Below are positions 49,351 to 50,446 of a DNA stretch of 64,000 nucleotides, in pieces. A program made the translations under genes and the position numbers. Source of the stretch: Aspergillus flavus. Lineage: Eukaryota; Ascomycota; Eurotiomycetes; Eurotiales; Aspergillaceae. The notes below the pieces were generated by a model, which was given only the letters and a program-made list of their open reading frames with translations, ran no database searches and was not told where the DNA came from. The stretch lies in the NCBI RefSeq assembly GCF_009017415.1, contig NC_092409.1, positions 1,550,001-1,614,000 of the forward strand. Reading direction: 5' to 3'. The first letter of the stretch is position 1, and every line of letters starts with the position of its first letter.

Positions 49351-50446
49351 TTACACATCGTCCATCGTACCGGCTGGTTCTTCCCCGCCGGATTCGTAGC
49401 TGCCCGCGGAACTGAGTTCATCTTCAGACTCTGTGTCTTCTCCGGCATCGTCGACGGCCTCTTTGCTAGCGTACTTTGCCACGTATTCTGTGATTATGAG
49501 TATATAGTGCATGTCCAATGTTTTTGTGGATAACCTACCCTTCACCTTGGCCTCGTAACTCTTAGGTTCCCTCATCAGCATTGCGGCAGCTTCACCGTTT
49601 AGTGGGTCCGATGGGTTCGGATAGCGCAGGAGTTGTGGAAGGAAGACCTCAAAGATGTTGATCATGTCGTACATCGGTGACCATGTTTGGTTGATGACAT
49701 CCAGGCAAACCGATCCGGAACTAAGAGACAAAGATTAGTGTCCGCCTTTCAGGAAGGTGAAAAGAAGCGTCTTACAGCTCGTCGATGTTGGGGTGGAATA
49801 TCCGATTTACGAACCCGATACTAGGGCTCTTGTAGGGGTATTGGTCGGGTAACTCGACGTGGATCTTCCAGTGACCACCGGAGAAAGGTGCTGTGTCGCT
49901 GTAAGTAAAAGACATAGGCGCCTGGGTATCCAAATACCTACTTTCCTCAGGGCCTTTGAAGCGGACATAAAATTCTTGCCTATCAAAACCCTATTGTAAA
50001 TAACTATGCCCTAGAGCTCGATTTCAGGGAAAAGACGGAACATACACTAAATGCAATAGTTAGCCTAGGGAAATCCGGTGGCAAAACACAAGAGACACTT
50101 ACTATTATCATTGACTAGGGTCACCTCATAGTCACTCATCAACCTAAGCAACTATCAGCACACCAAAATCTATAATCTTTGTCTTTGTCTTCTTTGTGAC
50201 GTATGTAGTTTCGACAGGACTGAGCAAAGGACATGCGATAAGAAATAAGATCGGAAGGAGCGCGTACATCCTGCCCAAGAGTTAGTTATAGACCAACAGA
50301 GATCATTTGAAGGCATAGCAGCATACTTCATGACCTATATTGAGGAAGGAAATCCATGTTAGCCATCCTTCCTTGTTTGAACTGTAACACCTTATGCGCG
50401 CTAATCGACTCACATCGGTCTCAATTCTCCGCTTTGGGCTACTCAT
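49351..50446 (-). CDS. UBC8: Ubiquitin-conjugating enzyme E2, Ubc8/UBE2H type, with microexons
   Basis: Coding order exons: 50414-50446 (33 nt), 50327-50334 (8), 50268-50270 (3), 50103-50143 (41), 50046 (1), 49942-49979 (38), 49776-49890 (115), 49539-49720 (182) and 49351-49487 (137); 185 residues. The product starts [20 protein letters not shown], has HPN at 74-76, active-site Cys85 in [15 protein letters not shown], and an acidic tail. It aligns with yeast Ubc8, as I recall it, without gaps through Cys85, which is the main support for the tiny exons. Ubc8 with the GID/CTLH ligase directs degradation of gluconeogenic enzymes. Skipping the 3 nt exon keeps frame but drops one residue; skipping the 1 nt exon breaks the frame. 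Confidence 0.88.

Follow-up and report, generated by a model that had tools for sequence, protein, structure and literature searches.

Results

The window, a 64,000-nt stretch of Aspergillus flavus DNA, carries a minus-strand gene at positions 50446-49351 that we rebuilt as nine exons of 33, 8, 3, 41, 1, 38, 115, 182 and 137 nt, separated by eight introns of 51-124 nt, all of them GT-AG. The spliced frame is 558 nt long and specifies 185 amino acids followed by a stop. The product matches Pfam UQ_con, which marks it as a ubiquitin-conjugating enzyme; it aligns over residues 1-172 with PDB 8pmq_E ("E2-24 kDa", which we take to be yeast Ubc8; E 9.9e-71) and also matches human UBE2H (2z5d, "E2 H"; E 3.1e-66). 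Since the UBC fold is homologous over its full length to both yeast Ubc8 and human UBE2H, the gene is assigned to the Ubc8/UBE2H E2 enzymes. The features of the rebuilt gene model, all on the minus strand, are as follows.

50414..50446, minus: exon 1, 33 nt; start ATG at 50446-50444
50335..50413, minus: intron 1, 79 nt, GTGAGT...ATAG
50327..50334, minus: exon 2, 8 nt (GTCATGAA), required for V-M-K of VMKMLMSDY
50271..50326, minus: intron 2, 56 nt, GTATGC...CTAAC...GCAG
50268..50270, minus: exon 3, 3 nt (GAT), from the gene model and the D-x-M-K-x-x-MSDY block of relatives
50144..50267, minus: intron 3, 124 nt, GTACGC...TTAG
50103..50143, minus: exon 4, 41 nt, ending ...AATGATAATA, its last base the A of the Met-29 codon
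50047..50102, minus: intron 4, 56 nt, donor GTAAGT, branch GCTAAC, acceptor TTTAG, from sequence, gene model and splice enumeration
50046..50046, minus: exon 5, a single T, second base of the Met-29 ATG, from gene model, enumeration and relatives
49980..50045, minus: intron 5, 66 nt, donor GTATGT, probable branch TTTAC (by inspection), acceptor GATAG
49942..49979, minus: exon 6, 38 nt, opening with the G of the Met-29 codon (G CAA GAA TTT)
49891..49941, minus: intron 6, 51 nt, kept in the deposited A. flavus protein P0025
49776..49890, minus: exon 7, 115 nt
49721..49775, minus: intron 7, 55 nt
49539..49720, minus: exon 8, 182 nt
49488..49538, minus: intron 8, 51 nt
49351..49487, minus: exon 9, 137 nt, with the stop TAA at its end

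An earlier note on this DNA had proposed the single-nucleotide exon T at 50046 between introns at 50102-50047 and 50045-49980, and the gene model places it exactly there. The model also holds an 8-nt exon (50334-50327) and a 3-nt exon (50270-50268), both absent from that note. The T lies between the complete AG acceptor of intron 4 and the complete GT donor of intron 5, each intron bearing a branch sequence (that of intron 5 assigned by inspection), and the predicted spliced cDNA over exons 4-5-6 reads ...GATAATATGCAAGAA.... The resulting NDNMQEF aligns with NDSMQEF in 8pmq; human UBE2H (2z5d) has L at the place of Met-29, so the M is not universal. Within intron 5, a competing AG (ACAATAG) occurs at 49991, 11 nt before the acceptor, between the latter and the probable branch TTTAC and near this branch.

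To define the splice choices at this joint, we enumerated the ways of placing one intron or two, each 40-140 nt long, that keep both flanking protein blocks open. Nineteen solutions are in frame, 16 of them with GT donors only, and NDNMQEF results from one of these 16 GT-AG solutions: the single-nucleotide exon, with donors GTAAGT and GTATGT. This is the solution put forward in the earlier note. Its further claim, that any other choice of splice sites would break the frame, is wrong: the frame survives in 16 GT-AG solutions, and P0025 uses one of them. Because several solutions stay in frame, frame alone is no proof of the exon; what argues for it is the conserved M together with the relatives. 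By eye, each of the eight gene-model donors fits GTRNG, and among the 16 solutions GTRNG donors are used throughout only by the single-nucleotide-exon solution and by a single-intron rival with a GCAAG acceptor, which yields NDN-KFYV.

The arrangement itself is rare in the window. The motif GTRNGT-YTRAY-YAG-one base-GTRNGT occurs once in the 64 kb, both strands included, and the same donor-branch-YAG-N-donor motif appeared in none of 60 first-order Markov simulations. For control, the distance from YAG to donor was set to 13 other values; a gap of 4 matched once, and the remaining 12 gave no match. The RNA structure of the exon 4-6 region gave no signal (z -0.05), and Rfam had no matches over the whole window.

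Related proteins provide a view of the same joint in other species. Three protein searches, from which the best 120 matches each were taken (of 5,623, 5,057 and 5,384), gave 227 distinct proteins, split by hand into 47 transcript-like proteins, 171 genome-predicted Pezizomycotina proteins and 9 others; eight organism names were looked up, and the other Pezizomycotina assignments come from general knowledge. Proteins were classed as transcript-like if they had an unbroken frame and came from jgi, lgn, ena or merc sources, with contigs of about 0.9-7.3 kb where given, a class that rests on short contigs and source label, not on records stating cDNA. P0094 (contig 7,280) and P0052 (3,272) are long for transcripts and were still placed in this class; P0091 and P0199, of mixed source and both with M, were counted as genome-predicted.

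At the single-nucleotide-exon joint, all 47 transcript-like proteins among the best matches listed read M-[QS]EF, a set that is not independent (P0054-P0056 are near copies) and that may contain some proteins from outside Pezizomycotina, where M needs no single-nucleotide exon. One of them, P0002, is 99% identical to the product, belongs by its residues to another Aspergillus and carries M. NDN-M-[QS]EF or a variant was found in 16 of the 171 genome-predicted Pezizomycotina proteins among the best matches listed (19 pass the regex, from which P0067, P0099 and P0166, reading S-M-QEF, were removed), leaving 155 without the M form. A similar split appears where the 8-nt and 3-nt exons meet, with the full D-x-M-K-x-x-MSDY block in 47 of 47 transcript-like versus 44 of 171 genome-predicted proteins. 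At three ordinary joints, by comparison, 162, 170 and 168 of the 171 genome-predicted proteins are right (95-99%), and 45, 43 and 47 of the 47 transcript-like ones pass the regexes; at joint 7/8 the transcript-like pass rate is below the genome-predicted one (Fisher p 0.008). With ordinary joints right and tiny-exon joints mostly wrong, gene prediction fails specifically at the tiny exons.

At the exon 7/8 joint, the transcript-like proteins P0033, P0060 and P0217 read NIDE-SGS in place of NIDELSGS and are one residue shorter, perhaps through a 3-nt acceptor shift; transcript-like P0064 reads NIGR-SGS there. P0065 and P0086 miss ordinary-joint regexes by single residues.

Several transcript-like proteins have close genome-predicted partners. 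When 46 of them were compared over the C-terminal part, 15 differed at no more than 8 positions from one of the genome-predicted proteins listed. Three pairs are identical over the C-terminal 148-149 residues and differ at the joint: P0006 and Penicillium chrysogenum P0017 (NDNMQEF versus NDN-K-FYV), P0002 and A. carbonarius P0019 (NDNMQEF versus NDN-MYVQK-QEF), and P0027 and Lepidopterella P0153 (NDNMQEF versus NDN-SMRSPQM-QEF). Given this C-terminal identity with genome-predicted partners, the transcript-like sequences are most simply taken as cDNA of the same or sister species.

The first of these pairs bears directly on the single-intron reading NDN-KFYV, in which one 128-nt intron (50102-49975, ending GGCAAG) yields a protein two residues shorter. 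This intron is in frame and opens with a good GTAAGT donor, and its product has the form seen in 19 genome-predicted proteins. It is nonetheless absent from all 47 transcript-like relatives, and the P. chrysogenum protein that shows it agrees at every one of 148 residues with a transcript-like protein that has M. The intron would also remove the M-Q-E that is present in 8pmq, and it needs an AAG acceptor. AAG is a poor acceptor. We regard this reading as highly improbable.

The wrong predictions carry traces of the exon that they miss. A gene finder that enters at the intron 4 acceptor and reads the T on into intron 5 will produce M, then a residue from a TNN codon, then a residue from a GNN codon, which is V if the donor is GTNNGT. 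Twenty-two genome-predicted proteins have an M after NDN that is followed by neither of the forms MQE or MSE, and 20 of them read M-[F/S/Y]-[V/A/G/D], the translation of A/T/GTNNG (slashes mark the splice boundaries); 14 of these 20 have the V demanded by GTNNGT. P0109 takes its third residue from the downstream GPEET block and so supports T/GTAY only. The two exceptions are from Emmonsia (MPN) and Mollisiaceae (MHP). Because ATG is the only Met codon, the exon base must be T wherever both intron positions hold.

The A/T/GTNNG readers span four classes: Eurotiomycetes, Dothideomycetes, Leotiomycetes and Sordariomycetes. In Aspergillus and Penicillium they include A. tamarii, A. carbonarius and Penicillium lividum, all Eurotiomycetes; Hortaea, Aureobasidium and Plenodomus represent Dothideomycetes, Diplocarpon Leotiomycetes and Beauveria Sordariomycetes. 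A second trace comes from proteins of the form S-x-QEF, in which x stems from an NNG codon in 21 of 21 cases, as a 4-nt donor shift in A/GTNNGT would give; this form includes Tuber, a pezizomycete.

Seven genome-predicted proteins (P0051, P0063, P0073, P0078, P0130, P0132 and P0172) read NDN-R-[QS]EF, with the length of the M form. This class may reflect either a single-nucleotide exon G predicted at the wrong place or a real change. Of two DNA searches with P0003, the one in viral contigs returned 25 pattern matches, none of them a relative, and the one in genome contigs returned three loci, one archaeal and two bacterial (L009-L011), with no fungal DNA among them; these three were left aside.

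One protein among the A/T/GTNNG readers, P0004 from A. tamarii, reads NDNMYVPQEF and corresponds to a larger micro-exon at our locus: exon 5 would be the 10-nt TGTATGTTCC, with donor GTCTTT at 50036, giving NDN-MYVP-QEF. This exon keeps the frame, yet its donor is weak, and YVP would be inserted into a block that has no insert in any of the 47 transcript-like relatives or in 8pmq. We consider the larger exon extremely unlikely.

The S-x-QEF form corresponds to the model behind P0025. Deposited as A. flavus, it can be read from the window DNA without a single mismatch when the rival donor is used, a match that points to A. flavus or to something identical over this gene, such as A. oryzae. In this model the donor of one 119-nt intron is shifted by 4 nt (GTGTCT at 50098), and the joining to 49979 yields NDN-SK-QEF, a reading that is in frame and open and whose S-x-QEF form recurs in 21 genome-predicted proteins. 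None of the 47 transcript-like relatives shows a form of this type, however, and GTGTCT lacks the G at +5, unlike all eight gene-model donors. P0025 includes the 3-nt exon, omits the 8-nt and single-nucleotide exons, and splices at other sites (50390, 50135 and 50098). With the 8-nt exon left out, MKMLMS missing and intron 6 kept, P0025 is a poor guide to true splicing, and we give its account of this joint very little weight.

An error in the reference is a further alternative. A base missing from or added to the assembly could hide a true gene with one intron here; correcting one base might be enough to give such a gene an open frame, and the reading comes from one assembly. Against this, the joint is also broken in proteins of many other assemblies, 20 of 22 of one kind spelling A/T/GTNNG, both short introns have normal lengths and signals, and P0025 is exact on this DNA, though its DNA source is possibly not independent of that of the window. 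We judge an assembly error to have scarcely any likelihood.

Taking the sequence, its frame, the uniqueness of the M-restoring solution and the protein pattern of the relatives together, we infer that the T at 50046 is very probably a genuine, constitutively spliced single-nucleotide exon of UBC8/UBE2H in A. flavus, with a structure seemingly kept across Pezizomycotina. The base is needed for the conserved protein: NDNMQEF arises in one of 16 solutions, and M is found in 8pmq and in 47 of 47 transcript-like relatives, human UBE2H having L. The pattern suggests that the exon is ancient and present in many related fungi. It is probable that the single-nucleotide exon and the upstream 3-nt exon have been kept since the common ancestor of most Pezizomycotina and are the cause of the 155 non-M predictions among the 171.

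How might an exon of one base be recognized? In the proposed mechanism, the T stands between two ordinary short introns that would interrupt a single Met codon in phases 1 and 2 (A/T/G), each with its own donor, branch and acceptor and each recognized across the intron (intron definition), so that no exon body would be necessary. Fungal introns of such size are thought to be recognized across the intron. The authors of a stwintron study state that they know of no description of exon definition in any ascomycete (PMC6616335), and those of the Arabidopsis APC11 study favour intron definition, the two introns leaving in turn (PMC4674806). The intron 4 acceptor and the intron 5 donor are one base apart and probably could not be occupied simultaneously, so the introns would be removed one after the other. 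Either order would be possible: each intron is complete by itself, and the signals of the other would stay whole whichever left first. Intron definition with sequential removal, as the earlier note had suggested, is thus supported as the likely route.

The likeness to a stwintron that the same note had drawn does not hold in the strict sense. A stwintron has no exon between its two introns; the inner intron sits within a splice signal of the outer one. The present pair does consist of two adjoining introns of similar size that are likely to be removed consecutively, and stwintrons are known in Aspergillus (PMC6616335, in the text available). In introns 4 and 5, however, every signal is contiguous: the intron 5 donor is whole before intron 4 leaves, no signal is interrupted, and the T would stay in the mRNA for the Met codon. 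We therefore rejected the stwintron reading, the chance of which is next to nil.

Modelled retention of intron 4 places a stop at codon 41, of intron 5 at codon 36 and of both at codon 41, and loss of the T places it at codon 69. Over the gene, eight of nine modelled splicing errors lead to an early stop; skipping of the 3-nt exon alone stays in frame, with one residue lost. Since eight of the nine give early stops, the chain of tiny exons could, in the boldest extension of our reading, act as a fidelity gate that tunes Ubc8 dose to splicing capacity; regulation through decay of mis-spliced RNAs is possible.

Discussion

A single-nucleotide fungal exon is already known from published work, and the UBC8 exon is not the first. 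The earlier note knew of no fungal case, and two reports precede ours: Fusarium CYP621A (PMC12940212, February 2026) and snoRNA introns of Candida (PMC5033589, 2016). In the open-access literature, searched by title or the start of the abstract, we found no UBC8 micro-exon. What is new is the exon's apparent subphylum-wide occurrence and the presence of 3- and 8-nt exons beside it. If our reading is right, UBC8 follows Fusarium CYP621A as the second case found of a spliceosomal single-nucleotide exon in a protein-coding gene of a fungus, and its exon has, on protein evidence, been kept across a subphylum. That would supply many natural replicates, in genetically tractable moulds, for studying how an acceptor and a donor one base apart are handled and in what order. 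It also reveals a systematic error in public fungal proteomes, with 155 of 171 examined proteins lacking the M form at a site where ordinary joints are 95-99% right. Transcript-like proteins exposed this error without read mapping, an approach that could serve other genes.

The closest parallel is CYP621A, whose authors call its exon the first for a fungal gene (PMC12940212). According to the available text of that report, CYP621A, like UBC8, has a single-nucleotide nuclear exon in a filamentous ascomycete; the base is the second of a codon within a conserved motif, and most annotations leave it out. Its exon is G (AGGGT) and is backed by SRA reads, whereas the UBC8 exon is T (AG/T/GT) and is backed by sequence and the proteins of relatives. 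CYP621A is described as a P450 rarely seen expressed, with orthologues within Fusarium (24 genes; PMC12940212), while UBC8 encodes a conserved E2, appears by protein evidence to hold the exon in most of Pezizomycotina, and has 3-nt and 8-nt exons in the same gene.

The Candida report predates that on CYP621A (PMC5033589, PMC12940212). In Candida and relatives, as in UBC8, a single base stands between two spliceosomal introns, a configuration its authors read as nested or recursive or as classic splicing (PMC5033589). It differs in lying in intronic snoRNA clusters of Saccharomycotina, with, in the text available, no coding frame apparently dependent on the base (PMC5033589).

Plants offer the single-nucleotide microexons of APC11 and VPS55, reported as conserved over land plants and missing from reference annotations (PMC4674806; PMC8831610). 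Intron definition with stepwise removal has been proposed for APC11 (PMC4674806), as we propose for UBC8. The plant cases, in different genes, are proven by RNA in these reports, whereas the UBC8 exon is predicted from the DNA and the proteins of relatives. APC11 also acts in the ubiquitin pathway, which we take as coincidence.

Two further fungal systems invite comparison. Stwintrons of Aspergillus and Hypoxylaceae resemble the UBC8 pair as two adjoining U2 introns removed consecutively by intron definition; as described there, the internal intron splits an external signal and leaves nothing, whereas the UBC8 signals are whole and one base is kept (PMC6616335, PMC5639578). In the mitochondrial rnl gene of an Ophiostoma strain (rnl-576/577), one base likewise stands between two introns, but these are given as group II introns of an rRNA gene, not spliceosomal ones (PMC12308204). 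Exons of 3 nt, like exon 3 of UBC8, have already been published for a fungus, in lipS of Dactylellina (PMC5639578).
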